A DNA stretch of 64,000 nt from Crossaster papposus (lineage: Eukaryota; Echinodermata; Asteroidea; Velatida; Solasteridae). Shown piece after piece: positions 2,922 through 57,021 of the stretch. The stretch lies in the NCBI GenBank assembly GCA_037893245.1, contig JBAIAA010000398.1:620001-684000 (forward strand). Reading direction: 5' to 3'. The position numbers and the translations under genes are program-made. Every line of letters begins with the position of its first letter. Position 1 is the stretch's first letter. The notes under the pieces are model-generated. The model was not told where the DNA came from, searched no databases, and saw nothing but the letters and a program-made list of their open reading frames with translations.

Positions 2922-3037
2922 ACCACATAACGATCGAGGCTCGATATTGTGTTTTCCTTTATTCCTATGTTATACCCAATCCCCATTGCTTTGCGCTTTG
3001 TTCTCTTTTGTGTCTCCCCCCTCGGTCGTTATGTGGT
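2922..3037. repeat. short fold-back element
   Basis: Arms ACCACATAACGATCGAGG (2922-2939) and CCTCGGTCGTTATGTGGT (3020-3037) are inverted copies with 17 of 18 matches, separated by an 80-bp C/T-rich loop. Probably a small MITE. No target duplication was identified. Confidence 0.55.
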
Positions 3038-13734: not shown

Positions 13735-13773
<39 letters not shown>

Positions 13774-16840: not shown

Positions 16841-16841
16841 A

Positions 16842-17031: not shown

Positions 17032-17054
17032 AAAAAAATCAGAACAAAAACAAA

Positions 17055-17082
17055 GGCTTTTTCGCAAAATTGCGAAAAAGCC
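17055..17082. repeat. variant hairpin with 13-bp stem
   Basis: GGCTTTTTCGCAA, AA loop, TTGCGAAAAAGCC: a perfect 13-bp stem. Its sequence differs from the preceding four hairpins but its context is the same (AACAAAAACAAAG before, CAAAAAG after). Both strands of the stem differ, so the pairing rather than the sequence is preserved. Confidence 0.85.
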
Positions 17083-19360: not shown

Positions 19361-19494
19361 GGGGCTAAATATGACTGAAAATTGCTGCTAGTCCCCATTC
19401 ACATGAGTCATCATGACTTGACCACAAGCTACAAACCTTCAGCACTCAATCCCTATCTACTGAGGAGTAATAAGGAGTTTTTCTACTGAAAACC

Positions 19495-35924: not shown

Positions 35925-36521
35925 TATGCAAAACAATACAGAATGTTTAAAAATTAAGAAGTTAAAGGTACATGAAACATACAAATCTACTGAATTATGA
36001 AATTACCAGTACCATCATGTTTAACAGTGACAAATAGACTTACATGTATTAGCATGGAGGGAGGTTTTAGCATCTTGTGAAATCCTGGCACCTGTTGTGC
36101 TGGCCTTTTAATAGAAAAGAGGAATTGTTGTATCAATAAGACAAACTATTTTGAAATACTGCCCTATTTTACCAAGCCAGCTAGTCTAGTTCCCTGAACT
36201 GATAATTCCCCGAAATCTACATGTATAAACTGCTGTTTAATTTAAATTAGGGTCAGGGAACCAGATTACATGAACAGTTTCATGATTTTTCCAGAATCCA
36301 TTTTATAAACACGACTCTAAAACAAGTTAGCGTAATAATATTAACATTCCGGTTAACCAAAAAGTGCTATAAGCCAATTTCATCTTTTCACTTGAATAAC
36401 AGACAGTCTAAAAATGGGAACATCTTTTTTGTAACTTACCCTGTAGTTTCATGTATGTTTTAAGAATGTAAATTTCTTATAATTTTCTAATTAAACTAAC
36501 CAACCTTTTTGACTTTCACAG

Positions 36522-38358
36522 GTGGTACATCAGCACCCTCTTTGCCAGCTAAGAAGCCTGCTATCGCCCCAAAACCTTCCTCTCTCAAAAGCCCACCACT
36601 ACCACGTAAGCAGAGCCATGGCAAGAAAAGCCCGGTCCCCGTCCCAACCCCGAAGCCGCGGAAGCTGCAGGCCACACAGAGCTCACCAGTACCGGTCACT
36701 ACAGGAGGAACTGGAGGACCCCCACTCATCAAAACCAAAACGTTCCAGGCCGCCGGAACGGGGCACCGGGCAAACAGCGAAGACTCTGGCATCTTTGACC
36801 TGAGAGACAGCGCTGAGCTGAACATCGCATGTGAAGTCCAGGATTCCATTTTGGAAGAGCCTGCCCTCGCTGACAAGAAATCACAGGTGTTCCACGAGGT
36901 CCTAATATCAGAAGCCGATTCACTAGACGTCAGTCCTCAGCTAGGTGCACCTAAGCCACATCCAAGAAGAGCCCCAGCGAGTCCAGTCCCACCCCCACGC
37001 AGAGCCAAGAGTGTCGTAGATCCGCCTATCCTCAACAGAGCTTTGAAACCCAAACTGACCAGATCCACAGATGATTTGACCACGTTCCCATTAGAAGAGG
37101 AACCCGAAGAAGCAAATGAAACGCACGACTCGGGTGCTAGTTATTCACCTTACAAATTACCAGAACCCAAACAAGATGCAACATGCCCAATTTCAGAAAC
37201 GGATAGATTCAAACTAAATGTCGCTCCTCCCCCAATACCACCTCATAAAGAAGGCAGCCCTGTCAGAACACACCAGAACAAATCCAAACCAGCACGGCCC
37301 CCTCCACCCTCTAAATGCATCCCAGCAGGTCCTCCAGTAAGACCCAAACCCTTATCTAAGACAACTTCTTGTCAAGAGTCCAGACATCCAAGCGTAGACA
37401 GTCCCCGAGCTGGAGAGGCGTCGCCAGTGATTCCACCTAGGACTCGACGGAGTATTGTAACTGATGACAAGCTGCTCGTCAATCAGACAGAGAAGACGTT
37501 CTTTCCTGAGAATGGTTTCTCAGAGGAGCCAAAGCCTCCACCAAGACTCTCGTCCAACTTGCCTCCTGATAGCGATGGCATTGAGGAGCCCCAACTCGTG
37601 ATCCCTCCAAGGAAAAGATGGTCCCAACATTCCAACAGCCTGACTGCTATGCCCTACCATAAAGTGCAATCTTCCCCAGATCCAGCCTCCCCCAGGTCTC
37701 CTGAAGTCATTCTCCATTCTTCCGGGATCGTCGGTTACCACTCTGTGGCCCCGCCTCGCCCTGTTCAGGGTCCTCCTAAGCGCTTTGCACCAGTTCCTCC
37801 AACACCTTACAGCACCACTTGCCAACAATCACAGCCTTTTCCTGAAGGAACCAAGAGGCGAATCCCACCACCTAGACCCCCACCAATGAGAAGCGCATTG
37901 CCTCCCAAGCCAGCATCACTCATCAAAAGCATCTCACATGAACAATATGCGTATGACGACTCGGCTGATCATCAAGACTCTCCTCGGCATCAAGAGAGTT
38001 ACAACACTGTGCAATCTGAGGACAAGAACCCAACGGACAGAACCAGCATCGTCAGCGATGATGAATACGTCCTACCAGACAGCGAGTACGTCATCTCAGA
38101 TGGCACCCACTATGAGAACAACGAATTTGGCCCTGTCTTTGATCTACCCCTGACGCCACCCCTATCTCCATCTGCTGAGTCTAGCGCCACCAAGAGACAG
38201 ATTCCTGGCAGGCAGAAGCGTGTCCCTCCACCCAAGCCTAATAGGACACCTAGCATCCAGTCTGATATCTCCAACGATGGCTATGAAGACATGTCCAGAG
38301 GGTCCTTGGCATCAGTAGCTCTGAGTTCTATGGGTGCTGAAGTTTACTCTGTACCCAG
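36522..38358 (+). CDS. FGD6: FGD-like exon 1 of those seen: proline-rich region
   Basis: Acceptor GACTTTCACAG|GTGG, donor TACCCAG|GTGAGT. It begins with two bases of a split codon and ends with two (AG, completed to Arg by the next exon). The 611 full codons encode a low-complexity Pro/Ser/Lys region with SH3-type motifs ([25 protein letters not shown]) and tyrosine motifs ([23 protein letters not shown]). This large exon corresponds to the long disordered N-terminal region of FGD5/FGD6. Confidence 0.9.
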
Positions 38359-41300
38359 GTGAGTTGAATTGTTTAATTCGTTCTTATAGTTCTTAATTAC
38401 TTACAAATGGATTGTTGATGTTTTGAATGGTTTGTGAATCAATCAATACTGCAGTATTTAGTTTTTCTATTAAGACAATGCTCCCAATGATATAAAGATT
38501 ATACTCTAAAAACGTTTAGAAGATAGTTGTCTTTCCAGAATACAAAATAGAGTAAATCCTAAACATCAAGAAATTCTCAAACATCGCGTAAGTTTGTTTT
38601 TCCACTGAATAGATTTTCAGGTTTTTTTTTAATAAAAAAATCCCATTTGACTGTTAAATTTAACTGCATTGCTGGCAAGTCAATAAAAACCACCAATTGC
38701 CACACAAGCACAAAGAAGTCCACATCAGCATCTGCACATTGTGTCTTCATAATAACTAGTCCTTGAAATCTGCCTATGATTGGCCTGCGTGGTTATGTAA
38801 CATTATGTAACCTTCTCTGAAAAGGACTGGTTGAATTTCTTTCAATCTTGCTGCTGGGCAGATATTGGAGAAAGGTCATCTTATAAAACATGCAAAGTGC
38901 TTGCTTGTGTAACTGGACTGCTATGTTAGGGCGTGGCTGTGGGAAAATAGGTTTCTGATCAGGGCTATTCAAGAACAAGATCATTCTATAGTTGGTTGTT
39001 CAGGGAATAGAGAATGGAAATGTATGCATGCTTTTAGCATTAGTAGTTATCAATTTTTTACTGACAATATGTTCAGATTCTCAACATATTGTTACCAGTA
39101 AAATAAGATTTACTGAAAAGCCAGTCTGTTGTCTGCTATTTCCATGCTAACACGTGATTGAAAATTGAATGAGGTCTTGTTAGAAATAATAGATTTCCCA
39201 AGTCTTTGCATTTAAAGAGATGGCCTTATTAATCATTGATCCGACTTGAGCCATTGAAACAAATGTGATGCCATAAGTGATGCCATAAGTCGCATTAAGA
39301 ACAAAACCTTTGGCCGGTCAGTGTGAAACGATACACTTTGAACTTCTTCATAATTAAGTAAACAAAGGTTATGACTTTGTTATACATCATAAGTACTTGG
39401 GGGTGTGTATATGAAACTTGGTCTCTGCCATTTTGTCACGAGTTTCACACTTTCTGCCCTTGTAACATAAATTGTTGATATATTAATTAAAGATGTTAAT
39501 GTCGAGTGGCTTGAGAAACAACCACTACTAAGTTAGTTGTTCCTACCTCCATGGTTGTTCTGATGTGCTGTTTTAAAGGTAGGATACACCATTTGCAGAT
39601 ATCGAACAAATTGACTACCGAAATATTAAGAAATATCTTACTCATCTGAAAGTAAATAATGATTTTAGGCATCCAGCAAAATTATTGCGCTACATGTAGA
39701 TATCCTGTAATTATTCTGAAAAATAGAATTTTATAAAGAGCAATTTGCGGCGATCGCAAAAAAACACAAATAACATAAGAATAACTGCTCGATGCCGGTT
39801 GAAAACAAATGCTGTTTTTCGTGCTTTTCTCGCCATCCATGATTGTAAAACTTCGGATAGGTCAGTTAAACGATATTTACTATAAAATACAACCCCCAAA
39901 TCCACCCATTCATGACAATTCAAGCAGTTACCAATGGTGTATGTTACCTTTAAAATAAATGACGCTAGATGTCAAATCAGTGGTCAATGTTTGTTGTTGC
40001 CCTGGCAGATTACATGTAAGTCAATGTTGATAAATATCTGTGGGTTTTGTAAACAAAAACCTGTTTGCAACAGGCGAGGTGTAAAGTTAGATTTGAGGAC
40101 AAAGTATTTATACTAAACGCTGGTTGGGTTACAGGATGTCATTTACAGGTTGAGGGAAAATTAAGAAAATCTAAAGTTTAAGGAATGTTTTGTGCACTGT
40201 ATTGATAAGCGAGCATGTGACACGGAAAGGGTTTGGGTTTCAAATTCATTGCTGCATAGCTTTTTAGGAAAGGTACGGTACATTCATAGTTGGTAGGGTT
40301 TAACATCGCACGTTTGCTCGTGATCCACTGAAAGGCGATTTCTTGAACCTACAGTACATAGTTGTGTGTAAAGAATGAACAATGCCTAGGAGTAATCAAA
40401 TGATAAGCATCCAAACTGATTTCATGAGGACCTACAAATATACTGTAGGCTGTACTGCTGGAACACCGGTTAAAAGTGTACCAATGCAGGAAACCTACTG
40501 GTAGTCTTGGTGCTTTAAAAAAGCACTGCTTTTTGAAGCATTTTAACTTGGATCAAATTCAGTTGGAAGAAAAAAGCTGTAGTTGTGTAGTGGCGTCAAC
40601 TTTGCATCTAAAAAGCAATTCTGCGGTTGAAATGTTTTCGATACTAGCTTGGGTGTCCAAGTCTAGTACCTGATGTGATTACTGACTCGTTTAATTTTGT
40701 TTGTTTTTTATTTGTAGGTCTTGTGAACACAGCATGCATGAGAGTGGGCGATGTCAGTGTGCAGACTATGCTGAGCAGAGCAGCGGCGGGGAAGAAGATG
40801 GTTCATCAGATGAAGATGACAGCTATGAGAAGTTTGACCAAGGCGTCTTGGTGGAGAAAGAAGAGGATGTGGGTGTGGATCCTGAGGTACGCAAGCGACG
40901 CAAGGCTTTCCTAGTAGCTCAAGAGCTAAGAGACTCTGAGAAGGTGTTTGTAGACGTCCTTAAACTCATCAATGAGGTAATTAATGTCTCCTTGTCATCT
41001 GGACTTATTAACCAGTCGAGTTTTACTGATTCCTTTGGTCCATAGTTACCATCTTTATTGATGAGGTAATCTTCTTGGTGTATGGACAGGATTTGAGATC
41101 TATGCTCAATACTTTTGTGTTCTGTCATTGTGGAGACAGCGCTTGGTTCTTGTGTACAACATTTCCGGAGATTTAACGGTTATTTTCAAAATGCTCCTAA
41201 TTAAACTAGAAATATTGTCTCCAAGTCACAGATTTTAATTCCACTGGTGACTTTGCTCAACCTTAAATTAAAACTTGGGGGAATAGGTTTAAAATAGGAA

Positions 41301-44300
41301 AAAAATTAGCTTGTAAATGAGCTTGTAAATAAGCAAGAGAGATGGTAAGAGTTTTAGAGACCACTAAAAGACATTTGAACACATTGTTGTTGATTCCTCG
41401 TGCTATGGATTTGTGCAAATCAGATTAAATATTAGCCATGTGTACCTAGCACCTACTTGCACAACTAATTGTTCCCTAGAACTGTCAAACTGTCAAGAGC
41501 TTCCTCTTGAAATGCAGATTTAGATCCAACAACCTCTGGAATACTCTGTGCTCCAAGTTTTAAGTTTTCATCTCCTAAATTGCTTCATCAGGAGCTGTTA
41601 CATCATAACATAGGACAACATTTTGCCCCTGTGCCACAAATTTAAGGGTAGTATACACCATTTGCAGATATCAAATTTTTACTACCGAATTATTAAAAAA
41701 TATCTTACTCATCTGAAAGTAAATGATTCTAGGCATCCAGCAAAATTATTGCGCTAGACATCCTTTAATTATTCTGAAAATTATTATTCGCGAAAAAACA
41801 CAAATAACATAAGAATGACTGCTCGACGCCGGTTGAAAACAAACGCTGTTTTTCAGGCTTTTCTCAGCATTCACGATTGTAAAACTTTTGACAGGTTAGT
41901 TAAACAATATTTACTAAAAAATACAACCCTCCAAATCTACCCATTCATGATAATTCAAGCAATTTCCAATGGTGTATCCTACCTTTAAGTATAGCGACAC
42001 AAATGTTTTCCTAGAACACGTGATCATCAAACATAATACTTGAGCCACTGTTTCTCTTTAATGTGACTTTACAGGATTTCAAGGCAGCCATTGAGGATGC
42101 TGAGAAGTTGGCTGGCCGGCCAATCATAGAGAAGGGAATGCTGGACCAGATCAGGGGTCATCTACCACAGCTTCAAATGTTTAACGAGGATCTGTTAGCA
42201 GATCTCAACTCCCGCGTCAATAACTGGTGAGATGTTAGGACAAGTTTCATACGTAGTCTAGTGGCCACAGGTATTAGTCCGGCCAATCATAGAGAAGGGA
42301 ATGCTGGACCAGATCAGGGGTCATCTACCACAGCTTCAAATGTTTAACGAGGATCTGTTGGCAGATCTCAACTCTCGTGTCAATAACTGGTGAGATTGCA
42401 GAACAAGTTTCATACGTAGTTTAGTGGTCACAGGTATTATATTGCCAACAAGGAGCTTGGTGTTTGTGTTCTTGGGCAAGACACTTTGCAACAATTATCT
42501 CTTAATCTAGGAGCTGTGGTATAAGAGTTGGTCTTGCATTTAAAGAATTGAGGTATTCAGAGACATTGAACGAGTATCGCATCATGAAGGTTGACAAATT
42601 TTGTAAAATGTTGTTCTTTGTCTGGAATTACAATAATTCACAATATTGATTTGAAAGTCATGGTGGATTTTCATTGTGCATATTAAAAGGCAACCATGTA
42701 CGTGAGAAATGGGTATTAAAAGACTCTTTTAAACAAACTCATTGTATGCGTTTTGTTTTGGCACTTAGGTCTGAGAACCCACGGATTGCAGACATCTTCC
42801 TAAAGAAAGGCCCCTATCTCAAGCTGTATAACACCTACATCAGAGACTTCCAGAAACTAACGGCTACCGTTGAAGAGGCGTGTCTGAAGTCACCATTGTT
42901 CAGTGCAACCCTCAAGGAATTTGAGGTGAGCCTTTCTCCAAGTGTACTAACTTAAACTAAAAGTCACTTGCCTCGGCGCACATTAGTACATTCATGTAAA
43001 TAGAAATTGTGCTACATGTGCTTTATACTGAGTAAGGCCTCAGTAGATGATTGTGTAGTACCGTACTGATTGATAGAGAGTTCCCTCTTATGAGATTCCC
43101 AGCCATTCTGTAAATCAGTCTGAAAATGAGTTTTCAAAACCCTGGGAATTAGGAAAATCACCCAATCGTGGAAAGATCGGGCAATGTGACTGTGATCCAG
43201 AAAAGTTTCTAATATAATTTTGTAAAATTTAAAGAATACTTGTTTGATTTGGGCATATGAAAATCAGACCACGTATTTATTTTATGGCTACATACAATCT
43301 TCCAAAAATAATCGTTACTCGGGTTTCTTGTCGACTATGCGACTGAATTGCTTATATTCTATTTTTCCATTACATTTTTCTAAAATTAATTGATTTAATG
43401 CCCAAAAGGCATTTTGTAATTTTAAGTTCTTATCAAACATGAATAACAGTTATGAGTGTTTCTTGGTTTTCTTTCTATCCAGGCCAGCCCACGATGCCAA
43501 AATCTGTCTGTTAGGCAACACATGCTGAAACCCATCCAGAGAATTCCTCAGTACAAACTTCTGTTGACAGGTAAGATTGCATTGTTGATCACTAGCGTTA
43601 GCTCAATAACCCTACATGTACTCTCTAGGCATTCATACTGGTCTGTACCGTCAACCCTCTAAAATGCTCCAACTGCCTTCATGCAAGCATTGAAAACAGT
43701 ACAGCAACGAGATAAAATGTTGGATTTTTTGCATATTTTTATCTTTACTCTAATTACCTGCTAGGGGCCTGGTCTCCAGTTGTGACAATTATTGACAACC
43801 AGGACCCCAAGTTAAAACGATCTTTTGAGTAGACCGTTTTAAAGTGGTTTTAAACCTTGTACCAAACAGCCAAACATGTACCAGTATGTATTTCTTCAAT
43901 TCCCAGACTAAGCCAAGCAAAAGCCCTTGTTGTAATGCCATGATTGATAAACACTAAACTTACCTTGTTGTATGATTCTTATTTCTTGACAGAATACCTG
44001 AAGCAGTTGGACGAGGAAACCCAAGAGGAAGATTTCAAAGACACTATGGGTGGGTAGAAAAGGGCTTGGCATCTTGTTTTTAAAATTGAATCGTATGTTA
44101 ACCAGTTAGCGCCAGGATTATTTTAACATCACCGAGCTGAAGTTCGGGATTATTTTTAACGAAACTCCATTCGAAGCGGGTTCAAGCCGATAGTGCCGTG
44201 AAGCACACCCACGCATTTCCGGCCTTGCTCGCTGCTGACACTCATTTCCGGCCTTGCTCATGGCGTGTTTATGCGTCATCCGTTTTGAATTTTGGGAAAA

Positions 44301-47300
44301 CTTTGCGTTTATATACGTCATCCGGCACGAACTGGTTAAATGACTGGTATCTTGGAAGTCGCTCATAAATCGTTATTTCATCGTAATATTTGGTAAAATT
44401 TCTCCCTTGCAGCTGCTCTGAACATTGTTAGCGAGGTTGCCAATCACGTCAATGAAAGCATGAAACAAGGGGTAAGCTGTTTTAACTTTGTTACAAATTC
44501 AGAATTAATTTAATTTGCTACCTCGGAGGAGCTTAATGCTATTTTGGCTAAACCTGATGGGATAATCTGTATTATGATCTAGTTATGACTCGGTCGACTC
44601 ACAATCTCTCAGACTGACGCTGTACTTATTCGTGGACTAATTACAAAAATGTAAAAATAGGACTTTATTTAAAACCGGGCTATAACAAACCCAGTCTTGT
44701 TAAAATGTACAGTCTGCATGCTGGTTTTTCATTCTAAATTTCATATTTGACTTTGTTTACTTCCAGGATAACCTTGACAAACTCCTGCAGCTTCAACAGT
44801 GTCTGGTTGGCAACCATGAAATAGTCCGGCCAGGAAGGGTGAGTAAAACGATATGTTGAGGTTTGGTGGTGAATGCTTGATGCAACGGTCTATTTGTAGT
44901 TGTAATTTTGGATGAATTTGTCGTGATAAATAAGTGATGGTCTTAATCAAATATTCCCAACTTTTTTATTGCAGGTTTTTATCAAAGAAGGTGATTTGTT
45001 GAAGTTGTCTCGGAAAGTGCCACAGACACGGAGGTTTTACCTGGTAAGATTGAGTACCTCCAAATATTAACTTGAATAGCTAATTTCTGAAATGTTTACA
45101 TTTTGAGATGTTATTTCACCATTTCAATTTTATTTGATAACTTTTGTTTCTCGCAATGAATCTGTTTTAGATTTTGATGACATGCATGTGTTCTCTGTCA
45201 AATTGCACATCTATTTTTCATTTCTTTATTTCTAGTTGAGTGATATCCTTCTGTATACCACACCATTCCTGTTAACTCCTGGCCAGTATAATTACAAGCT
45301 TCATAATGTTCTGTCGTTAGCTGGCATGAGGGTAAGAATGTGTTAAGACTAGTTTATTAGTTGGATTTACTCAGGAATCTCGTAAGCATAATGTTCGGCT
45401 TTCAAAGGAAACCTTGCTTATTGTCCAGAAAAAAAAATTGTTTCATTTTCAGCTCCCAACTGAGCTAATATTTAGACAACCTATTTTTTGTTTAATTTGC
45501 GCAGATTGTATCATTAGATGGCAGAAATATCTTGTTCAAAAGCTGTCTATCTATTCATGCATTAACCCTATCCTTCCCAAATCCATCAAAATGTAGCCCC
45601 ATTTTGGAGGACTTGGGCCAGGAGGCCTGAAACACTATAAAAAAATCAGATTGTGTCCATTATCCTGTAAAGCCATTGCGTACTAAATCTATTATCAACT
45701 AGCTCTTCAGTAGTAGTTCCATGATCCCATATATAAGAAGCCAAATGAGTGGTGGGTCTTTGGCTGATTTGGTTCATTACTAAGTAAAAGTTTGAGAGTT
45801 AGTGGTAAACAATAAAATTAAATTCCCTATTCTGCAGTTAAAACAAAGGATGAATTTGGTATTGATACAAGATGCTGAAGTACATGGTGGCATGCTGGAA
45901 ATGAATATATTAATGTTACTCTGTGAAGTGCAACAAAATTTACCTCTTTGTATTTTTCTGTCTATTTTTAGGTGAGCAAGCCAGCGCAAGAAGATTACAA
46001 GAATGAGTTCAGTATTATCAGTGTTCAGAGGTCCTTCACGCTAGCAGCCAAGTAAGTAGAAAATAGTCAATTAACCAGTTACTTTCCAAAAACCACGAGA
46101 TGATTTCCTCAGATTTTGCTGGATTGATTAATAGTTTCTGCCAATCAGTGGACTTTGGTTGAGGTCTGGAAGGATCTGTTTAGGTTCAATGGTAAATTGT
46201 AAATTGCTCCTAAACTTCTAGGGTGTGGACATTTGTGTTGCGATGTCAGGGTTAAATCTAATTGGCTGTCTAGAGAACTTCCTGTGCAGGTTTTTTAAGT
46301 TCCCAAAATCTCTTAAGAAAATCACCTGGGCAAACAAGAATATAATGTTTATAGTTCGTTTATTGCTTATAAACGACAAAACTAAATAATGAATTTACAT
46401 CGCCCAGACACAAAATTTCATCCTATGGATAGTTTGGTTACAGTACCTACTGACTAGGTGAGCTCAATAGTCGGGTGATAAGACCTTTGCATAAAGAAGG
46501 TTGCAGGTTCAAGTCTCACCCGAACATTCACTCAAGATAACACCGAGTATACAGTATTTATGAAACTTCGTCGGGTGAAGGTCAAAACATGACAAATTTG
46601 TTGTCCCCCCCCAAAAAAAAAAAATATTGTTAGTGAGTACTTGCATTTCCATTCATCAGTTTCAATGGCTTTCCATTTTTAATTTGTTTGGAACAGTACC
46701 CCAGAGGAACGTGATTCTTGGGTCTCTACTCTGAATAAATCCATCACGGAGTATGCCAGCAAGAGAAGCTCCTTTGCTGTGTTACATCCACAGTATGCGC
46801 AGGTAAGGAAGTGACATTGGGTCGTATTAATAAATACTAGCACAGTACCCCAGAGGAACGTGATTCTTGGGTCTCTACTCTGAATAAATCCATCACGGAG
46901 TATGCCAGTAAGAGAAGCTCCTTTGCTGTGTTACATCCACAGTATGCGCAGGTAAGGAAGTGACATTGGGTTGTATTAATAAATACTAGCACAGTACCCC
47001 AGAGGAACGTGATTCTTGGGTCTCTACTCTCAATAAATCCATCACGGAGTATGCCAGCAAGAGAAGCTCCTTTGCTGTGTTACATCCACAGTATGCGCAG
47101 GTAAGGAAGTGACATTGGGTCGTATTAATAAATACTAGCACAGTACCCCAGAGGAACGTGATTCTTGGGTCTCTACTCTGAATAAATCCATCACGGAGTA
47201 TGCCAGTAAGAGAAGCTCCTTTGCTGTGTTACATCCACAGTATGCGCAGGTAAGGAAGTGACATTGGGTTGTATTAATAAATACTAGCACAGTACCCCAG

Positions 47301-50300
47301 AGGAACGTGATTCTTGGGTCTCTACTCTCAATAAATCCATCACGGAGTATGCCAGCAAGAGAAGCTCCTTTGCTGTGTTACATCCACAGTATGCGCAGGT
47401 AAGGAAGTGACATTGGGTCGTATTAATAAATACTAGCACAGTACCCCAGAGGAACGTGATTCTTGGGTCTCTACTCTGAATAAATCCATCACGGAGTATG
47501 CCAGTAAGAGAAGCTCCTTTGCTGTGTTACATCCACAGTATGCGCAGGTAAGGAAGTGACATTGGGTCGTATTAATAAATACTAGCACAGTACCCCAGAG
47601 GAACGTGATTCTTGGGTCTCTACTCTGAATAAATCCATCACGGAGTATGCCAGCAAGAGAAGCTCCTTTGCTGTGTTACATCCACAGTATGCGCAGGTAA
47701 GGAAGTGACATTGGGTCGTATTAATAATTACTAGCACAGTACCCTAGAGGAACGTGATTCTTGGGTCTCTACTCTGAATAAATCCATCACGGAGTATGCC
47801 AGCAAGAGAAGCTCATTTGCTGTGTTGCATCCACAGTATGCGCAGGTGAGAAAGTGACATTGGGTCGTATTAATAAATACTAGCACAGTACCCTCGAGGA
47901 ACGTGATTCTTGGGTCTCTACTCTCAATAAATCCATCACGGAGTATGCCAGCAAGAGAAGCTCCTTTGCTGTGTTACATCCACAGTATGCGCAGGTGAGG
48001 AAGTGACATTGGGTCGTATTAATAAATACTAGCACAGTACCCCAGAGGAACGTGATTCTTGGGTCTCTACTCTCAATAAATCCATCACGGAGTATGCCAG
48101 CAAGAGAAGCTCCTTTGCTGTGTTACATCCACAGTATGCGCAGGTGAGGAAGTGACATTGGGTCGTATTAATAAATACTAGCACAGTACCCCAGAGGAAC
48201 GTGATTCTTGGGTCTCTACTCTGAATAAATCCATCACGGAGTATGCCAGTAAGAGAAGCTCCTTTGCTGTGTTACATCCACAGTATGCGCAGGTAAGGAA
48301 GTGACATTGGGTCGTATTAATAATTACTAGCACAGTACCCTAGAGGAACGTGATTCTTGGGTCTCTACTCTGAATAAATCCATCACGGAGTATGCCAGTA
48401 AGAGAAGCTCCTTTGCTGTGTTACATCCACAGTATGCGCAGGTAAGGAAGTGACATTGGGTCGTATTAATAAATACTAGCACAGTACCCTAGAGGAACGT
48501 GATTCTTGGGTCTCTACTCTGAATAAATCCATCACGGAGTATGCCAGTAAGAGAAGCTCCTTTGCTGTGTTACATCCACAGTATGCGCAGGTAAGGAAGT
48601 GACATTGGGTCGTATTAATAAATACTAGCACAGTACCCTAGAGGAACGTGATTCTTGGGTCTCTACTCTGAATAAATCCATCACGGAGTATGCCAGTAAG
48701 AGAAGCTCCTTTGCTGTGTTACATCCACAGTATGCGCAGGTAAGGAAGTGACATTGGGTCGTATTAATAAATACTAGCACAGTACCCTAGAGGAACGTGA
48801 TTCTTGGGTCTCTACTCTGAATAAATCCATCACGGAGTATGCCAGTAAGAGAAGCTCCTTTGCTGTGTTACATCCACAGTATGCGCAGGTAAGGAAGTGA
48901 CATTGGGTCGTATTAATAAATACTAGCACAGTACCCTAGAGGAACGTGATTCTTGGGTCTCTACTCTGAATAAATCCATCACGGAGTATGCCAGCAAGAG
49001 AAGCTCCTTTGCTGTGTTACATCCACAGTATGCGCAGGTGAGAAAGTGACATTGGGTCGTATTAATAAATACTAGCACAGTACCCTAGAGGAACGTGATT
49101 CTTGGGTCTCTACTCTGAATAAATCCATCACGGAGTATGCCAGCAAGAGAAGCTCCTTTGCTGTGTTACATCCACAGTATGCGCAGGTGAGAAAGTGACA
49201 TTGAGTCGTATTAATAAATACTAGCACAGTACCCTCGAGGAACGTGATTCTTGGGTCTCTACTCTGAATAAAGCCATCACGGAGTATGCCAGCAAGAGAA
49301 GCTCCTTTGCTGTGTTACATCCACAGTATGCGCAGGTGAGGAAGTGACATTGGGTCGTATTAATAAATACTAGCACAGTACCCTAGAGGAACGTGATTCT
49401 TGGGTCTCTACTCTGAATAAATCCATCACGGAGTATGCCAGCAAGAGAAGCTCCTTTGCTGTGTTACATCCACAGTATGCGCAGGTGAGGAAGTGACATT
49501 GGGTCGTATTAATAAATACTAGCACAGTACCCTCGAGGAACGTGATTCTTGGGTCTCTACTCTGAATAAATCCATCACGGAGTATGCCAGCAAGAGAAGC
49601 TCCTTTGCTGTGTTACATCCACAGTATGCGCAGGTGAGAAAGTGACATTGAGTCGTATTAATAAATACTAGCACAGTACCCTCGAGGAACGTGATTCTTG
49701 GGTCTCTACTCTGAATAAATCCATCACGGAGTATGCCAGCAAGAGAAGCTCCTTTGCTGTGTTACATCCTCAGTATGCGCAGGTGAGGTAGTGACATTGG
49801 GTCGTATTAATAAATACTAGCACAGTACCTCAGAGGAACGTGATTCTTGGGTCTCTACTTTGAATAAATCCATCGCGGAGTATGCCAGCAAGAGAAGCTC
49901 CTTTGCTGTGTTACATCCTCAGTATGCGCAGGTGAGGTAGTGACATTGGGTCGTATTAATAAATACTAGCACAGTACCTCAGAGGAACGTGATTCTTGGG
50001 TCTCTACTCTGAATAAATCCATCACGGAGTATGCTAGCAAGAGAAGCTCCTTTGCTGTGTTGCATCCACAGTATGCGCAGGTGAGAAAGTGACATTGAGT
50101 CGTATTAATAAATACTAGCACAGTACCCTAGAGGAACGTGATTCTTGGGTCTCTACTTTGAATAAATCCATCGCGGAGTATGCCAGCAAGAGAAGCTCCT
50201 TTGCTGTGTTACATCCACAGTATGCGCAGGTGAGAAAGTGACATTGGGTCGTATTAATAAATACTAGCACAGTACCCTAGAGGAACGTGATTCTTGGGTC

Positions 50301-53300
50301 TCTACTCTGAATAAATCCATCACGGAGTATGCCAGCAAGAGAAGCTCCTTTGCTGTGTTACATCCACAGTATGCGCAGGTGAGAAAGTGACATTGAGTCG
50401 TATTAATAAATACTAGCACAGTACCCTCGAGGAACGTGATTCTTGGGTCTCTACTCTGAATAAATCCATCACGGAGTATGCCAGCAAGAGAAGCTCCTTT
50501 GCTGTGTTACATCCACAGTATGCGCAGGTGAGAAAGTGACATTGGGTCATATTAATAAATACTAGCACAGTACCTCAGAGGAACGTGATTCTTGGGTCTC
50601 TACTCTGAATAAATCCATCGCGGAGTATGCTAGCAAGAGAAGCTCCTTTGCTGTGTTACATCCACAGTATGCGCAGGTGAGAAAGTGACATTGAGTCGTA
50701 TTAATAAATACTAGCACAGTACCCTCGAGGAACGTGATTCTTGGGTCTCTACTCTGAATAAATCCATCACGGAGTATGCCAGCAAGAGAAGCTCCTTTGC
50801 TGTGTTACATCCACAGTATGCGCAGGTGAGAAAGTGACATTGGGTCATATTAATAAATACTAGCACAGTACCTCAGAGGAACGTGATTCTTGGGTCTCTA
50901 CTCTGAATAAATCCATCACGGAGTATGCCAGCAAGAGAAGCTCCTTTGCTGTGTTACATCCACAGTATGCGCAGGTGAGAAAGTGACATTGGGTCGTATT
51001 AATAAATACTAGCACAGTACCCTAGAGGAACGCGATTCTTGGGTCTCTACTCTGAATAAATCCATCGCGGAGTATGCTAGCAAGAGAAGCTCCTTTGCTG
51101 TGTTACATCCACAGTATGCGCAGGTGAGAAAGTGACATTGAGTCGTATTAATAAATACTAGCACAGTACCCTCGAGGAACGTGATTCTTGGGTCTCTACT
51201 CTGAATAAAGCCATCACGGAGTATGCCAGCAAGAGAAGCTCCTTTGCTGTGTTACATCCACAGTATGCGCAGGTGAGAAAGTGACATTGGGTCGTATTAA
51301 TAAATACTAGCACAGTACCCCAGAGGAACGTGATTCTTGGGTCTCTGAATAAAGCCATCGTAGAGTAGAGTATGCCAGCAAGAGAAGCTCCTTTGCTGTG
51401 TTACATCCACAGTATGTGCAGGTGAAGAAGCGACATTGCCACTTGCCTTAATAATTTTGCCACATTTTTCGAAATCCCTGGCAGAAAATAATAAGATAAT
51501 ATATATTGTGGTAACACCACGGTAATACTCTCTAGTGAGATATATGATGCTCTGCCGGTCGTCAGGAGACGGAGAGATTCCAACAGTGAAGCAGGGTTAT
51601 ATAGAGCCATGAAGCGTGCAAAGAATGCAACTCTCCCAAAGTTCCAATGCTGGTTTACATTTGCACATCTTTAAACTGACCTTCTAGACGGGCAGTTTCA
51701 AAGCAGCAAGTTTTGAATTATAAGGCAAGTAGTTGCAGACAAAGTGGAAAGGAATCTTCTTGAAGACATCAACTTGAAGCCACAGATGGTACGGAGTAGA
51801 GGACATCTGTTTTCCTGACACAGCAGCAGCCATCTTGTATCGCCATGACAGCGCTGCTATATTTCAGGCGGTATACTGGTAACGGTTAATATGCAGTTTA
51901 CCAGTTATTTCCTGGAATATAGGAACGCTGATCTAATGCAGCGATGAAACTCGTTGGTGGACTTCACAAAGATGATTTAAGTAAAGCAACTTGATTGTAA
52001 CTGGGCTATAACATGGCATAAATCCCAATGAACAAAATCCACATGCCACAAATGAAACATGTACATTATTGAAGTAGTTTCTAACAATGTTTAACAGTAA
52101 TTCAGCTTTTAAATGAAAATTATTACACAAAAGCATCCATTCATCTGATTAAATAGTGTTACGAGGCGATTTCTAGTATAGCCAAAAAGGACATTCTTTT
52201 ATGATTGTAGAAACTGAAGTTTTATAATTAAAATCCACTAAATGTGTAAAATCAAACCACACCATCAAACTGCCCAACTTTGAACTCCCAAACCGTTTCC
52301 AAAGTTTGTAGTGTTTAATGCATTCATTGGTAATCATGTTAAAAAAATAATTACCGGTGCATGTAACCAAAACGCAATATCTCCTGCCTAGATTCCAGAT
52401 GCCTGTATCACCAAGTGCATGATCTGTTATCTTCTGCCCTTGTTGATGGGTGATTTTGTTTGGATTCTCTCAGCTCCTCTGATAAGTCAATACCACCAGC
52501 CTTGGCAGGAAGGCGCCAGCCTAGATTCCAGATGCCTGTGTAACCATGTGCATGGTCTGTGTAGTCTCCTGCCCTTGTTGATTGGTGATTTTGTTTTGTT
52601 TCTTTCAGCTCCTTTCAGAAGGTGATACCACCAGCCTTGGTAGGAAGGCACCAGCCTGGATTCCAGACGCCCGCGTCACCATGTGCATGATCTGTACCTG
52701 TGAGTTTACCATCACGTGGAGAAGGCACCACTGCAGGGCTTGCGGAAAGGTAACAATTGCACAAGTCTCATTCGCTTTCTTCACTTGTACCTTGGCATCT
52801 AGCTTGCTTCTGAACATATCTCCGAAAAGAAACGTGGTGCACAACATCCATTGGTACTTGGCTTTGAATCCATTGTTGAAAAGATCATTTAAACAAAAAA
52901 AGCCCTTAGTCTCGACCAGAAAGACGTATCTGGCTTTAAAGGTGGTATACACCATTTGCAGATATCGAAAATATTTACTACCGAATTATTAAGAAATATC
53001 CTACTCATCTGAAAGTAAATGTTGATTCTGGGCATCCAGCAAAATGATTGCGCTAGATATCCTGTAATTATTCCGAAAAATAAAATTTTATAATGAGAAA
53101 TTCGCGGTTTTTCGTGCTTTTCTCGGCATCCATGATTCTAAAACTTAAACGATATTTACTATAAAATACAACCCCCCAAATGTACTCATTCATGATAATT
53201 CAAGCAATGACCAATGGTGTATACTACCTTTAAAAAACACGATTTTTCAAGACAAACGGGTCTACACGTAAACTTAATATTTTTCTCTGAATGTTAAAAA

Positions 53301-56300
53301 AACCAATGCCAATAATTATGGGGGTCTTCATAAAATAGTCTTTGAAATACTTCAGGTCAAGGCGAACCTCGTGAGTATTTATCATTCAAGAAAGCAATGC
53401 ATCCTCTTTTATTGCAGGTCATCTGTGGCAACTGTTCATCCAATAAGGTGCCACTACTCTACCTGGCCAATAAGGTTGCAAGGGTCTGCGACCAGTGCTA
53501 CAGAAATCTTGTCAAAGGTAAAATATAATAATTGCAACAAAAAGAAAATATGAAAGTTAAGATTGAATTTCAGATTGTGAATGATTGTACTGGTACTAAC
53601 AATCCTGTATAATTCCATCTGGCTTGCTGTCTCATTTAGAGAAAATCAAGAAATGTGAATTTCCAAGAACGAGTCGGTTAACTGATTTGGGAAAAGTGCT
53701 TTTGATTAAATTGTGTTTTGTGATAAATGTTGTACATGGTTTGCTACCAATTTAAGTGTAATATCCACTGAACTAAAACTTCAATAGGTTAGGTTTTAAA
53801 GATTTAAACTGTTAACTTGATTCGAAATAAACAAAATGCATAAAAAGCAAATATCCTTCATGCCTTTACACTTCTTTGAAAATATAATTTTAATTGTCGT
53901 GTTTGCTTCAATTTTTTGGAATCAAATTGATGTAGGATTAAATTTGTTCATAGGTGATAAACAAAGTGAGGAGACGGAAGATAGCAAGGATCGTGGGAAG
54001 GTTAAGAACAAACGGAAGAGATCTACGAAGCTGGTCATACGACCCTCAGCACTCAAACAGGTAACAGAAATCTACCACCGATAACTTGTAATCACACTTG
54101 TAATGGGAAGGGTAAAGGCAAATGGAAGGGATCCACCAAGCTGGACATACGACCCTCAGCACTCAAACAGGTAACAGAAATCTACCACCGATAACTTGTG
54201 ATCACACTTGTAGTGGGAAAGGTAAAGGCAAATTGAAGAGATCCACCAAGCTGGTCATACGACCCTCAGCACTCAAACAGGTAACAGAAATCTACCACCG
54301 ATAACTTGTGATCTCACTTGTAATAGGAAGGGTAAAGGCAAATGGAAGAGATCTACCAAGCTGGTCATACGACCCTCGGCACTCGAACAGGTAACAGAAA
54401 TCTACCACCGATAACTTGTGATCACACTTGTAATGGGAAGGGTAAAGGCAAATGGAAGGGATCCACCAAGCTGGTCATACGACCCTCGGCACTCAAACAG
54501 GTAACAGAAATCTACCACCGATAACTTGTGATCTCACTTGTAATGGGAAGGGTAAAGGCAAAATGGAAGAGATCCACCAAGCTGGTCATACAACCCTCGG
54601 CGCTCAAACAGGTAACAAAAATCGACCACCGATAACTTGTGATCACACTTGTAATGGGAAGGGTAAAGGCAAATAGAAGGGATCCACCAAGCTGGTCATA
54701 CGACCCTCGGCGCTCAAACAGGTAACAAAAATCTACCACCAATAACTTGTGATCTCACTTGTAATGGGAAGGGTAAAGGCAAATGGAAGGGATCCACCAA
54801 GCTGGTCATACGACCCTCGGCGCTCAAACAGGTAACAGACATCTACCACTAATAACTTGTGATCACACTTGTAATGGGAAGGGTAAAGGCAAATGGAAGA
54901 GATCTACCAAGCTGGTCATACGACCCTCGGCGCTCAAACAGGTAACAAAAATCTACCACCGATAACTTGTGATCACACTTGTAATGGGAAAGGTAAAGGC
55001 AAATGGAAGGGATCCACCAAGCTGGTCATACGACCCTCGGCACTCAAACAGGTAACAGAAATCTACCACCAATAACTTGTGATCACACTTGTAATGGGAA
55101 GGGTAAAGGCAAATAGGAGAGATCCACCAAGCTGGTCATACAACCCTCGGCACTCAAACAGGTAACAGAAATCTACCACCAATAACTTGTGATCTCACTT
55201 GTCATGGGAAGGGTAAAGGCAAATGGAAGAGATCTACCAAGCTGGTCATACGACCCTCGGCGCTCAAACAGGTAACAGAAATCTACCACCGATAACTTGT
55301 GATCACACTTGTAGTGGGAAGGGTAAAGGCAAATGGAAGAGATCCACCAAGCTGGTCATACGACCCTCAGCACTCAAACAGGTAATGGATATCTACTACC
55401 GATAACTTGTGATCACACTTGTAAAGAACCACACAACTCACTATTAAAAGAGAATTACCACATGGTGTTACCGCAAACTACTTAACAGAAATCTAGAATG
55501 CAGCATAGAAAATCTGCAAAGAAAGATGCATTATATTTTGACAATGTGTTAATCAAGGTTATCACAAGACAATTTGTCTGTCGGAATTTGAGCTTTAAAA
55601 TAAAATTGAGCTGTGCTTTTTTTTGTTTTTTGTTTTTGTTATTAGTCCAGAAAAAATATTTTTTTTTACAATTTTAGAATCATACTGAGCCAACTTCCAG
55701 GCAAATCTCTGATTTTGGGGTATATTTTGAAAAAGGACGGATGTGATAAACTTAGTAATGACGTATTACTGAGTAGCTACAATGCTTATAACCACAAATG
55801 TAAACAGTCGCAGAGAATTGAGATGTACAAGTTACAGACTCAACTACATCACCGATACTAATGCAAGAGTAATAATAAAACACTGTTGACATTTTTCAGG
55901 TTTCCGCTAATGAGCAGGACACCACCATGAGTGGCTACCTGATGCTGCGACGTAAGAAAGACTGGAAGAGACAATGGTATGTCTTGAAGGAGAAGGTGCT
56001 GTATCGCTACAAGGCAAGCGAGGATGTAGCAGCGTTGGAGAGTATGCCTCTATTGGGCTATGATATACAGCTATTGCTTGAGGTCAGTAGGATTATATCT
56101 AAACCTAGTTTGCTAGTTCAGTTTCTTTACCATTAAATCCTGCATTGTCCATGTCTGGAAAAGTCAAATGGCTATAGATTTATGTTAACTATAACAGTTC
56201 AAAATCTTCCAATCAAATTGCTGTATTATGTGCTTACCAAGTCGTATAACACCTAAAAGTAGCAATGTTCACGACTTTCATTCACTTTTTGTTTTGGTTT

Positions 56301-56441
56301 TTGTAGTCTTTCGAGGGAGTGGAACCAGGCCTCATCTTGCAGCTATGTCATCAATCGAAGGTGCTATTCCAGCTGAGAGCAGAAAACAAAGCCATGGCTG
56401 AGAAGTGGGCTACACTCATGACAGAAGCTACTCATCTCTGA
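36522..56441 (+). CDS. FGD6: FGD5/FGD6-like RhoGEF gene (DH-PH-FYVE-PH), 5' end missing; joined over 17 exons
   Basis: Seventeen exons with consistent phases encode 1231 residues to a TGA. FGD proteins are guanine-nucleotide exchange factors for Cdc42-type GTPases that link phosphoinositide-marked membranes, notably endosomes, to actin. Order: a proline-rich region (1 to about 650) with PAIAPKP and many PxxP motifs; a DH domain (about 672-870); PH1 (about 891-997); a FYVE finger (about 1027-1090) with [13 protein letters not shown] and four CxxC pairs; and PH2 (about 1135-1231) with [11 protein letters not shown]. The PH2 and FYVE wording is closest to vertebrate FGD6 as I remember it, so the symbol is a best guess; FGD5 is the alternative. 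The first exon shown begins inside a codon, so at least one upstream coding exon is not identified. Human FGD6 is about 1430 aa. Five exons have tandemly duplicated surroundings, listed separately. Confidence 0.9.
38359..39572. other. intron sequence after FGD-like exon 1
   Basis: Ordinary AT-rich intron, no further exon candidate with a matching phase. Confidence 0.5.
39573..39952 (-). mobile_element. MITE family A, copy 7, in an FGD-like intron
   Basis: TTAA-AGGTAGGATACACCATTTG at the left and GGTGTATGTTACCT-TTAA at the right, with a full interior in reverse orientation. It sits in the intron between exons 1 and 2. Confidence 0.88.
39953..40717. other. intron sequence before FGD-like exon 2
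   Basis: No feature beyond the acceptor tract TTTTGTTTGTTTTTTATTTGTAG at its end. Confidence 0.5.
40718..40976 (+). CDS. FGD6: FGD-like exon 2: acidic linker and start of DH
   Basis: Acceptor TTTTATTTGTAG|GTC, donor AATGAG|GTAATT, ending in phase 0. It encodes a short Cys-containing stretch ([12 protein letters not shown]), an acidic segment ([15 protein letters not shown]) and the first DH helix ([20 protein letters not shown]). Confidence 0.9.
41642..41988 (-). mobile_element. MITE family A, copy 8, in an FGD-like intron
   Basis: TTAA-GGGTAGTATACACCATTTG at the left and GGTGTATCCTACCT-TTAA at the right. It sits in the intron between exons 2 and 3. Confidence 0.88.
42075..42226 (+). CDS. 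FGD6: FGD-like exon 3: DH domain
   Basis: Acceptor GTGACTTTACAG|GAT, donor AACTG|GTGAGA, phase 0 to 2. It encodes [20 protein letters not shown] and [20 protein letters not shown]. Its 3' part and donor are duplicated directly downstream (42279-42441). Confidence 0.9.
42116..42441 (+). repeat. 163-bp tandem duplication of exon 3's 3' part and donor
   Basis: CCGGCCAATCATAGAGAAGG at 42116 recurs at 42279. The unit covers about 110 nt of exon 3, its donor AACTG|GTGAGA, and the start of the intron (TAGTGGCCACAGGTATTA). The second copy has no acceptor; using its donor instead would read through TGA. Confidence 0.95.
42769..42925 (+). CDS. FGD6: FGD-like exon 4: DH domain
   Basis: Acceptor TTTTGGCACTTAG|GTC, donor TTTGAG|GTGAGC. 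It encodes [20 protein letters not shown] and [18 protein letters not shown], the IADIF..KGPYLK..Y core typical of FGD-family DH domains. Confidence 0.9.
43483..43570 (+). CDS. FGD6: FGD-like exon 5: DH domain, QRIPQY helix
   Basis: Acceptor TTCTATCCAG|GCC, donor TTGACAG|GTAAGA, ends in phase 1. It encodes [19 protein letters not shown], the highly conserved L-KP-QR--(R)Y-LLL helix of Dbl-homology domains that contacts the GTPase. Confidence 0.92.
43993..44049 (+). CDS. FGD6: FGD-like exon 6: DH domain
   Basis: Acceptor ATTTCTTGACAG|AAT, donor CTATGG|GTGGGT, phase 1 to 1. It encodes [19 protein letters not shown]. At 57 nt it is the smallest exon seen; both neighbouring introns fit the phase. 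Confidence 0.85.
44098..44339 (-). mobile_element. MITE family B, copy 4, in an FGD-like intron
   Basis: 242 bp, TTAA-CCAGTTAGCGCCAGGATT at the left and CCGGCACGAACTGG-TTAA at the right. It lies in the 363-bp intron between exons 6 and 7 and makes up two thirds of it. Confidence 0.9.
44413..44471 (+). CDS. FGD6: FGD-like exon 7: end of DH
   Basis: Acceptor TCTCCCTTGCAG|CTG, donor CAAGG|GTAAGC after the last G of a GGG codon, ending in phase 0. It encodes [20 protein letters not shown], the last DH helix. Confidence 0.88.
44767..44838 (+). CDS. FGD6: FGD-like exon 8: DH-PH linker
   Basis: Acceptor TTACTTCCAG|GAT, donor GGAAGG|GTGAGT, 24 codons in phase 0. It encodes [20 protein letters not shown] and RPGR, leading into PH1. 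Confidence 0.88.
44975..45043 (+). CDS. FGD6: FGD-like exon 9: PH1 strands 1-2
   Basis: Acceptor TTTTTTATTGCAG|GTT, donor TACCTG|GTAAGA, 23 codons. It encodes [15 protein letters not shown] and RRFYL, the first two strands of the PH domain. Confidence 0.88.
45236..45331 (+). CDS. FGD6: FGD-like exon 10: PH1 strands 3-5
   Basis: Acceptor CTTTATTTCTAG|TTG, donor ATGAGG|GTAAGA, 32 codons in phase 0. It encodes [20 protein letters not shown] and [12 protein letters not shown]. Confidence 0.88.
45972..46051 (+). CDS. FGD6: FGD-like exon 11: PH1
   Basis: Acceptor CTGTCTATTTTTAG|GTG, donor GCCAA|GTAAGT, ending in phase 2. It encodes [20 protein letters not shown] and SFTLAA. Confidence 0.88.
46459..46530 (+). 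repeat. tRNA-like SINE fragment in intron
   Basis: GGTGAGCTCAATAGTCGGGT followed by GCAGGTTCAAGTCTCACCCG resembles an A box and a B box (GGTTCAAGTCT). The stems do not pair well, so a tRNA-derived SINE is likelier than a tRNA gene. Confidence 0.35.
46697..46802 (+). CDS. FGD6: FGD-like exon 12: PH1 C-terminal helix; first copy of a 32-copy array
   Basis: Acceptor TTTGTTTGGAACAG|TAC has the only good upstream pyrimidine-rich tract in the array; donor GCGCAG|GTAAGG. The exon is 106 nt, phase 2 to 0, and encodes [20 protein letters not shown] and [15 protein letters not shown]. This is the PH-closing helix with its conserved Trp. The identical exon recurs every 149 bp to 51421. Confidence 0.88.
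46697..51421 (+). repeat. 32-copy, 149-bp tandem array, each unit a complete PH-domain exon
   Basis: Unit starts fall at 46697 + 149 x n for n = 0 to 31, without indels in the period. Each unit is a 106-nt exon copy plus a 43-nt spacer (GTAAGGAAGTGACATTGGGT ... TACTAGCACAG). Copies differ at a few sites: Pro/Leu/Ser at residue 3, Thr/Ala in ITEY, ASK codon AGC/AGT, and donor GTAAGG, GTGAGG or GTGAGA. Thirty-one copies keep the frame open. The last (51316-51421) has compensating small indels and an in-frame TAA. Dimers of 298 bp also repeat (units 1-2 equal units 3-4). Confidence 0.97.
51422..52387. other. intron sequence, nothing recognised
   Basis: Ordinary AT-rich intron between the exon array and the FYVE exon region. 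Confidence 0.5.
52388..52700 (+). repeat. about 134-bp tandem duplication around the FYVE exon
   Basis: CTAGATTCCAGATGCCTGT at 52388 and 52521 and CTGGATTCCAGACGCCCG at 52656 are successive copies, each followed or preceded by CTGCCCTTGTTGAT..GATTTTGTTT and a TTTCAG|CTCC or TCTCAG|CTCC acceptor. Only the last copy has an intact exon. The copy at 52478 reads CTCCTCTGA, a stop at the third codon. Confidence 0.9.
52478..52560 (+). pseudogene. decayed duplicate of the FYVE first-half exon
   Basis: Acceptor-like GATTCTCTCAG|CTCCTC with a TGA at codon 3, then homology to [12 protein letters not shown] and to [10 protein letters not shown] at nucleotide level (CAGATGCCTGTGTAACCATG). It is not usable as a coding exon. 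Confidence 0.8.
52609..52749 (+). CDS. FGD6: FGD-like exon 13: first half of FYVE
   Basis: Acceptor TTTGTTTCTTTCAG|CTC, donor GGAAAG|GTAACA, 47 codons in phase 0. It encodes the WIPD motif, the first zinc pair CMIC, and [10 protein letters not shown] containing the R(R/K)HHCR phosphatidylinositol-3-phosphate-binding signature. Confidence 0.92.
52936..53232 (-). mobile_element. MITE family A, copy 9, in an FGD-like intron
   Basis: TTAA-AGGTGGTATACACCATTTG at the left and GGTGTATACTACCT-TTAA at the right, with a shortened interior (297 bp in total). Confidence 0.85.
53418..53517 (+). CDS. FGD6: FGD-like exon 14: second half of FYVE
   Basis: Acceptor CTTTTATTGCAG|GTC, donor GTCAAAG|GTAAAA, ending in phase 1. 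It encodes [20 protein letters not shown] and [13 protein letters not shown], supplying zinc pairs CGNC and CDQC. Confidence 0.92.
53954..54060 (+). CDS. FGD6: FGD-like exon 15: basic FYVE-PH2 linker; its 3' part starts a 13-copy array
   Basis: Acceptor AATTTGTTCATAG|GTG, donor AAACAG|GTAACA, phase 1 to 0. It encodes [20 protein letters not shown] and [15 protein letters not shown]. The 3' two thirds plus the donor repeat downstream every 110 bp. Confidence 0.85.
53994..55423 (+). repeat. 13-copy, 110-bp tandem array of exon 15's 3' part and donor
   Basis: The unit contains TGGGAAGGGTAAAGGCAAATG, ACCAAGCTGGTCATACGACC, CTCAAACAG|GTAACAGAAA and CGATAACTTGTGATCACACTTG. Donors end at 54060, 54170, 54280, 54390, 54500, 54611, 54721 and so on to 55381. 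The span equals 13 x 110. Each copy keeps the peptide [13 protein letters not shown] and then a TAA in the intron part (VTEIYHR-stop). No copy but the first has a convincing acceptor. Confidence 0.95.
55900..56082 (+). CDS. FGD6: FGD-like exon 16: PH2
   Basis: Acceptor TGACATTTTTCAG|GTT, donor CTTGAG|GTCAGT, 61 codons in phase 0. It encodes [20 protein letters not shown] and [19 protein letters not shown]. The wording is very close to vertebrate FGD5/FGD6 PH2. Confidence 0.92.
56307..56441 (+). CDS. FGD6: FGD-like last coding exon (17): PH2 end and stop
   Basis: Acceptor GGTTTTTGTAG|TCT; it runs to TGA at 56439-56441. It encodes [20 protein letters not shown], the PH-closing KWATLM helix with its Trp, and TEATHL. 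The 3' portion including the stop is repeated in the following 3' UTR. Confidence 0.92.
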   Translation, partial: SFEGVEPGLILQLCHQSKVLFQLRAENKAMAEKWATLMTEATHL

Positions 56442-57021
56442 TCATTAGGGCCTCTCAGCTGAGAGCAGAAAACAAAGCCATGGCTGAGAAGTGGGCTACA
56501 CTCATGACAGAAGCTACTCATCTCTGATCATTGGGGCCTCTCAGCTGAGAGCAGAAAACAAAGCCATGGCTGAGAAGTGGGCTACACTCATGACAGAAGC
56601 TACTCATCTCTGATCATTGGGGCCTCTCAGCTGAGAGCAGAAAACCGCCATGGCTGAGAAGTGGGCTACACTCATGACAGAAGCTACTCATCTCTGATTA
56701 TTGGGTTCTCTCAGCTGAGAGCAGAAAACAGCCATGGCTGAGAAGTGGGCTACACTCATGACAGAAGCTACTCATCTCTGATTATTGGGTTCTCTCAGCT
56801 GAGAGCAGAAAACAGCCATGGCTGAGAAGTGGGCTACACTCATGACAGAAGCTACTCATCTCTGATCATTAGGGCCTCTCAGCCGAGAGCAGAAAACAGC
56901 CATGGCTGAGAAGTGGGCTACACTCGTGACAGAAGCTACTAGTCTCTGATTATTGGGGCCTCTCGGCCATGGCTGAGAAGTGGGCTACACTCATGACAAC
57001 CCCTGATCATTAGGGCCCTCT
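56373..57021 (+). repeat. 84-86-bp tandem repeat of the last coding segment, 7-8 copies
   Basis: Unit starts (CTGAGAGCAG) at 56373, 56459, 56545, 56631, 56715, 56799 and 56883 (CCGAGAGCAG), with a truncated copy near 56966. Copy 1 is coding; the others lie past the stop. Each repeats [16 protein letters not shown] or a slight variant followed by TGA. An AAA-codon deletion explains the change from 86 to 84. Confidence 0.95.

Follow-up and report, generated by a model that had tools for sequence, protein, structure and literature searches.

The window (the whole 64,000-nucleotide stretch of DNA that was analysed) carries on its forward strand an FGD-type gene with the domain order DH-PH-FYVE-PH. 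The following parts of the gene can be read.

36523..38359, + strand: proline-rich large 5' exon (open frame 36500-38362, AG and GT boundaries read; taken to belong to the same gene)
40718..40976, + strand: exon that opens the DH (RhoGEF) domain (open frame, boundaries read; likewise assigned to the same gene)
42075..56441, + strand: 15 exons coding for RhoGEF-PH-FYVE-PH and the stop codon (single 533-aa frame, Pfam, solved relatives)

When the 15 exons are joined at their GT/AG sites they give a single open frame of 533 aa followed by a stop, in which Pfam identifies RhoGEF, FYVE and, in two stretches, PH. The best solved relatives are FGD5 [PDB: 3mpx, E = 3.5e-81] and FGD6 [PDB: 9jb3, E = 5.6e-53], and the last PH has a solved relative of its own in FGD6 (PDB: 1wgq); both the domain order and the similarity to FGD5/FGD6 place the gene in the FGD family. 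The two upstream exons are probably part of this gene, whose first exon was not located. The assembly (1.02 Gb in 1841 contigs) was searched for arrays and for gene copies, and no second copy of the FGD-type gene was found among the 81 of 113 candidate places that were scored. The shortest intron found in the gene is 136 nt. Dispersed copies of a mobile-element-like repeat lie in its introns, two of them located by self-comparison (39572-39953 and 41641-41988) and one by eye (52940-53230). Outside the gene, the window also contains a satellite-like block (11414-17064), long and built of tandem repeats with units of 147, 176 and 322 bp, in which TGACGTCACGTGACC-like words are abundant, and a 787-codon open frame (19474-21837) that by eye resembles a piggyBac-type transposase.

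TRF reports five long-unit arrays in the FGD-type gene, each overlapping a different one of the 15 exons.

42116..42439, + strand: array a (TRF, 163 bp x 2.0, 94% matches; exon end from the 533-aa frame)
46693..51438, + strand: array b (TRF, 149 bp x 31.9, that is 32 copies, 97% matches)
52383..52695, + strand: array c (TRF 52386-52695, 135 bp x 2.3, 85% matches; unit about 134 bp, about 2.3 copies)
53994..55424, + strand: array d (TRF, 110 bp x 13.0, 93% matches)
56370..57021, + strand: array e (TRF 56370-56964, 84 bp x 7.0, 96% matches; 7-8 copies in all)

The unit of array a consists of the 3' part of exon 42075-42226 and, on its donor side, 52 intronic bp; copy 2 falls in the following intron. 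Array d is built in the same way from the 3' part of exon 53954-54060 and 43 intronic bp on its donor side, and the following intron takes up copies 2-13. In array b the unit takes in an entire PH1 exon of 106 nt together with its AG and GT (first copy 46697-46802). Neighbouring exon copies are separated by 43 nt, all 31 intervals among the 32 copies measure 149, and 31 of the 32 copies have an open frame, the frame of copy 32 being broken. Array c is of acceptor type, its unit combining the 3' end of an intron, with the acceptor, and the 5' part of the FYVE exon; reconstruction of the reading frame indicates that the working exon (52609-52749) takes the last acceptor, and the first copy meets stops directly behind its own. 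The unit of array e has no splice site and is formed by the final stretch of coding sequence in the last exon, its stop codon and the next 14 bp. Copies 1-3 of this array are 86 bp and the later ones 84 bp, a truncated eighth copy ends at about 57021, and copies 2-8 sit behind the first stop. In all five arrays one copy remains attached to the rest of its exon, the first in the donor-type arrays and the last in the acceptor-type array c; the protein can thus be read without the extra copies, and would be unaffected by the arrays. The original prediction, that five exons each have their own tandem array, is borne out by TRF and by self-comparison, and so are its unit sizes (163, 149, about 134, 110 and 86/84 bp), its copy numbers (2, 32, about 2.3, 13 and 7-8) and its statement that every unit contains part or all of an exon with a donor, an acceptor, both, or a stop codon.

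Self-comparison of 36.5-57.1 kb [blastn, E <= 1e-3, offsets 20-3000, leaving out rows that begin in array b, d or e] gave no further tandem pair besides the five arrays, and otherwise just two dispersed copies of the mobile-element-like repeat, 2 kb apart. Over the same stretch TRF (period >= 20) reports only the five arrays, that is, no array with a unit of at least 20 bp that is confined to an intron; two intronic repeats with 12-bp units are present (39265-39290 and 41303-41334). The claim that none of the arrays in the gene is purely intronic holds for units of 20 bp and above, and their location in the 3' half of the gene holds for its readable part, the 5' end not having been located. 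Microhomology at the breakpoints had also been raised. By eye, arrays a and d share no bases at their edges and array e at most CA. For array b, 28 nt of the last part of the unit could be aligned to the right and left flanks; 1223 and 2792 of 5000 shuffles reached the scores, and since shuffled sequences match them so often no origin can be claimed for this part of the unit and short microhomology at the edges of array b, which had been considered, is not established. Microhomology neither favours nor rules out end-joining or slippage.

No standard explanation was thought to exist for such duplications. However, tandem repeats across exon-intron boundaries have been described in lancelets under the name of 'mirages' (PMC3087553, PMC3902484), and a survey of human genes also reports repeats at these boundaries (PMC2812944). 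We consider it probable that the arrays are 'mirage'-type minisatellites, here in a member of the FGD family from an echinoderm that is probably a sea star; that is, exon-edge duplications that were tolerated and in some cases expanded. Array e stands apart from mirages, because it spans the stop codon in the last exon and has no splice site. We infer the following mechanism. A short tandem duplication (80-165 bp) would arise across an exon edge, and its extra copies would land in the adjoining intron (arrays a, b, c and d) or behind the stop codon (array e). It would be tolerated because one intact copy, adjacent to the remainder of its exon, is still available for splicing to the neighbouring exons, the spare copies becoming intron or 3' untranslated sequence. 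Some arrays would then grow by unequal exchange or slippage and be partly homogenized, as suggested by the even spacing and by the similarity of neighbouring copies in array b. The reading as mirage-type minisatellites draws directly on the anatomy, the frame, the retained splice signals, this neighbour similarity, the decay of outermost copies in several arrays and the presence of similar arrays in other genes.

Arrays in other genes were sought by reading the rows of profile searches by eye for exon rows that repeat at even, short spacing. The searches covered kinesin (at least 132 matches, 122 of 243 candidates scored), myosin (at least 94 matches, 65 of 228), RhoGEF (50 matches, 82 of 82) and tyrosine phosphatase (at least 154 matches, 150 of 195). 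Among the matches listed, evenly repeated exon rows occur at three places, all of them kinesin: C1238 (8 rows), C1108 (3 rows) and C17 (5 rows). All three arrays are of donor type, with 145 bp x 8.3 at C1238, 3.2 copies of the same unit at C1108 and 133 bp x 8.0 at C17. C1238 and C1108, with 8.3 versus 3.2 copies, share 90.5% of bases in one flank (105 bp) and 96.2% in the other (319 bp); the two are alleles or paralogues. A myosin gene (C907) has an acceptor-type array (129 bp x 2.0, 99%), its exon start being a deduced one. The examination of other genes for exon arrays, which the original prediction had envisaged, has in this way produced two kinesin loci, a second copy of one of them, and one myosin gene.

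The same searches returned two myosin matches on C519 that lie about 0.6 kb from each other and overlap in model range, and six consecutive RhoGEF domain matches at about 1.1-kb spacing (C366:57335-63460). A Pkinase search, in which 126 of 1099 candidates were scored, returned numerous single-frame genes along with large arrays of genes, and was left out of the counts. On contigs C701, C282 and C359, kinase-like open frames of about 540 codons, over 30 in number and mostly of equal score, follow one another every 6.7 kb or so and form a large tandem gene array. An ABC transporter search was not used, all 19 scored candidates (of 405) being on contig C8. This contig (> 5.2 Mb) has COX1 frames without in-frame TGA beside the 19 transporter matches; it is a bacterial chromosome in an animal assembly, either symbiont or contaminant.

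If five such units are placed at random in the collapsed gene, all five touch at least 20 nt of exon with P = 0.003-0.007 according to the stretch used, in a test that is post hoc, exon overlap being the very feature for which the finding was picked. Taken at face value this would agree with a duplication process in the genome that is directed to exons, where composition, nucleosome occupancy or transcription-linked breaks start duplications more often. Effects of nucleosomes and of breaks on duplication at exons are familiar ideas; exons have a much higher G+C than introns (0.504 versus 0.353), and units of about 130-165 bp recur. A comparison sample of 14 other gene stretches (124,914 bases, 57 exon rows) speaks against it. 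The stretches were chosen by their rows and not by arrays, and C1238, C1108 and C17, having been fetched for their arrays, are left out of the 14. Of five sample arrays with a period >= 60, one touches an exon (the myosin array) and four appear intronic, on the evidence of rows and reading without full annotation. A single 78-bp minisatellite, present twice in the interval between one pair of rows, accounts for two of the four. An array at 2379-2650 of a sample stretch is intronic by reading, with the nearby exon ending at about 2347. At periods of 20-59, one array in 20 abuts an exon start. From the row exons of the sample, 0.10-0.21 exon-touching arrays are expected per array, and the observed 1/5 is near this value; the kinesin arrays came from exon searches, which are blind to intronic ones. 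With four of five sample arrays apparently intronic, the sample does not support a process that targets exons throughout the genome, and we regard one as unlikely. Intronic arrays as frequent as exonic ones, which had been named as the outcome that would speak against such a process, were largely found in the genome sample and not in the FGD-type gene. Exon-edge arrays recur in the assembly, and intronic ones are no rarer.

What stands out is the presence of five arrays in one gene. The collapsed gene (13.7 kb) has five long-unit arrays versus 0.55 predicted by the sample rate (P = 0.0003). Exon and non-exon arrays number 5 and 0 here versus 1 and 4 in the sample [Fisher one-sided 0.024, or 0.048 when the split minisatellite is counted once]. 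Five of 17 exons carry arrays versus 4 of about 412 family rows elsewhere; the corresponding P = 6e-6 is rough, since the rows favour whole-exon repeats, one of the four came from TRF, C1238 and C1108 are counted apart and the candidates were scored in part. The reading as mirage-type minisatellites leaves the reason for five unexplained.

The copies of array b vary, and 24 of 31 are distinct. Neighbours are more alike than in random order (3.57 differences, permutation P = 0.0008); for array d, C17 and C1238 the permutation P is 0.05, 0.07 and 0.24 respectively. All 31 clean copies of array b keep ACAG before the exon, GTAAGG, GTGAGA or GTGAGG after it, and an open frame, and they encode six peptides that differ at three sites only. 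Their variants comprise four that change an amino acid versus nine silent ones, fewer changes than expected (expected non-silent 0.72, P = 0.0025), which is suggestive of coding constraint. Array d shows no skew (8 changing versus 4 silent) and has a stop in 2 of the 11 copies examined (copy 1 and a copy with a 1-nt insertion left out). C1238 has a mild shortage of changes (18 changing versus 13 silent, P = 0.027).

These observations might indicate that array b is a functional bank of exons, any of the roughly 31 copies being spliced in singly to give redundancy or small variants of the PH domain. Such a role would fit the intact splice signals and frames and the shortage of changes in array b, as well as the lack of skew in array d, whose inner copies have no acceptor. 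In the four copies inspected, the inner acceptors of array b have 10 of 22 pyrimidines, fewer than the acceptor of copy 1 (14 of 22) and as many as the working acceptor at 53954 (10 of 22). Since this acceptor works, the inner ones cannot be called unusable, and weak pyrimidine tracts were dropped as a proof that the inner copies are unused. Neighbouring copies would be unlikely to enter an mRNA jointly, because the 43-nt gap is far below the shortest intron of the gene and the exon, at 106 nt, is not a multiple of three. Against a bank of exons, six peptides differing at three sites offer little diversity to select, and the donor-only array of C1238 is also mildly skewed, so that exchange with the used copy would explain the skew equally. 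Unused copies would not be expected to show the shortage of changes seen in array b unless they exchange sequence with the used copy and, since in C1238 it is the exon's donor side that is repeated, such exchange is the simpler account. We therefore hold separate use of the copies to be improbable. A wider proposal, that the exons of some genes are preferred starts of duplication and that the copies of array b are kept readable by exchange through the used position or by their own use, making the array a store of spare exons, seems to us doubtful.

Returning to the mirage-type reading, decay of the outermost copy is seen in array b (copy 32, the one broken frame in 32), array c, C17 and C1238. 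In C17, copies 7 and 8 of 8 have 13 and 21 differences from the consensus (the others 1-4), with TTAAGT and GTATGC as donors in place of GTAAGT; in C1238, copy 8 of 8 has 13 differences (the others 2-11). Such decay is not a general rule, as two cases deviate. The most divergent copy of array d is copy 1, the working one (9 differences; the others 2-6, copy 6 left out), and divergence does not rise outwards along copies 1-31 of array b (copy 31 has 3 differences; copies 22, 23 and 27 have 6).

That the arrays are an artefact of assembly or sequencing is highly improbable. The assembly does have contigs with identical rows (C394, C437) as well as the bacterial contig, but most copies of array b differ from one another, the unit sizes vary between arrays and similar arrays are present at four other places.

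The mitochondrial contig (16,330 bp) bears on the host. Its COX1 can be read with the echinoderm code, TGA being Trp and AGA Ser; tables 9 and 14 both fit, table 14 being a flatworm mitochondrial code. AAA falls at what we take to be conserved Asn sites, as in the echinoderm code, and the tRNA block that precedes COX1 has, in order and strand, the inverted arrangement of sea stars. The host is accordingly an echinoderm, probably a sea star; a lancelet origin, suggested at first by the literature on mirages, is rejected on the mitochondrial code.

Among known systems, the exon array of Dscam is spliced in a mutually exclusive manner. Array b resembles arrays of this type in repeating a single exon many times, with splice sites on each copy; it differs in that the copies are nearly identical and only 43 nt apart, and the clearly different peptides of a mutually exclusive array are replaced by six that are almost the same.

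The closest parallel is with the mirages of lancelets. The cases described are Adh3, troponin C, the globins BflGb6 and BflGb9, and PGBD5 (PMC3087553, PMC3902484). The globin repeats have units of 150-160 bp in BflGb6, with 6 and 3 units in two haplotypes; copies at the cluster boundary escape homogenization and RT-PCR suggests regular splicing (PMC3087553). PGBD5 has repeats of 60 and 108 bp, and the paper cites Adh and troponin C (PMC3902484). The head-to-tail, minisatellite-type repeat of mirages is found in all five of our arrays, and the exon-intron boundary is spanned by arrays a, b, c and d, at the 5' or the 3' boundary of the exon as in lancelets, and not by array e. Identity of 81-100%, boundary copies that are not homogenized and splice signals in many copies are shared features. 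The differences are an echinoderm host, five arrays in one gene, a whole exon repeated 32 times and a stop-codon array without a splice site, all known here from DNA alone. Every mirage case read has a cephalochordate host, which is not part of a definition; the host here is not one, its COX1 reading with the echinoderm code.

The human survey places boundary repeats in recently duplicated genes and segmental duplications (PMC2812944). These are likewise minisatellite expansions at exon edges, in that study with alternative splicing and possible new introns; they differ in their average unit (30 bp versus 84-163 bp here) and in belonging to recent paralogue groups, whereas the FGD-type gene was found once. 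In potato, a duplication crossing an intron-exon boundary and carrying splice signals, as ours do, is reported to have produced a new intron (PMC4974935); here the arrays are read from the genome and not from transcripts.

The arrays extend boundary-spanning minisatellites, known from lancelets, to another phylum, and put donor-type, acceptor-type, whole-exon and stop-codon-type arrays side by side in a single gene. The FGD-type gene is thereby a natural test of splicing with repeated sites and of the model of intron gain by duplication, and also of whether exchange with the used copy keeps unused exon copies clean. Were duplication at exon edges truly preferred genome-wide, this would be a new mutational bias. 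Among the open-licence papers searched, no echinoderm case of such repeats was recognized. Relative to the literature found, three things are new: the presence of five arrays in one gene, the repetition of a whole exon 32 times, and the phylum. Arrays a-d are a striking case of a known kind of repeat, the mirages, and not a new class of element.
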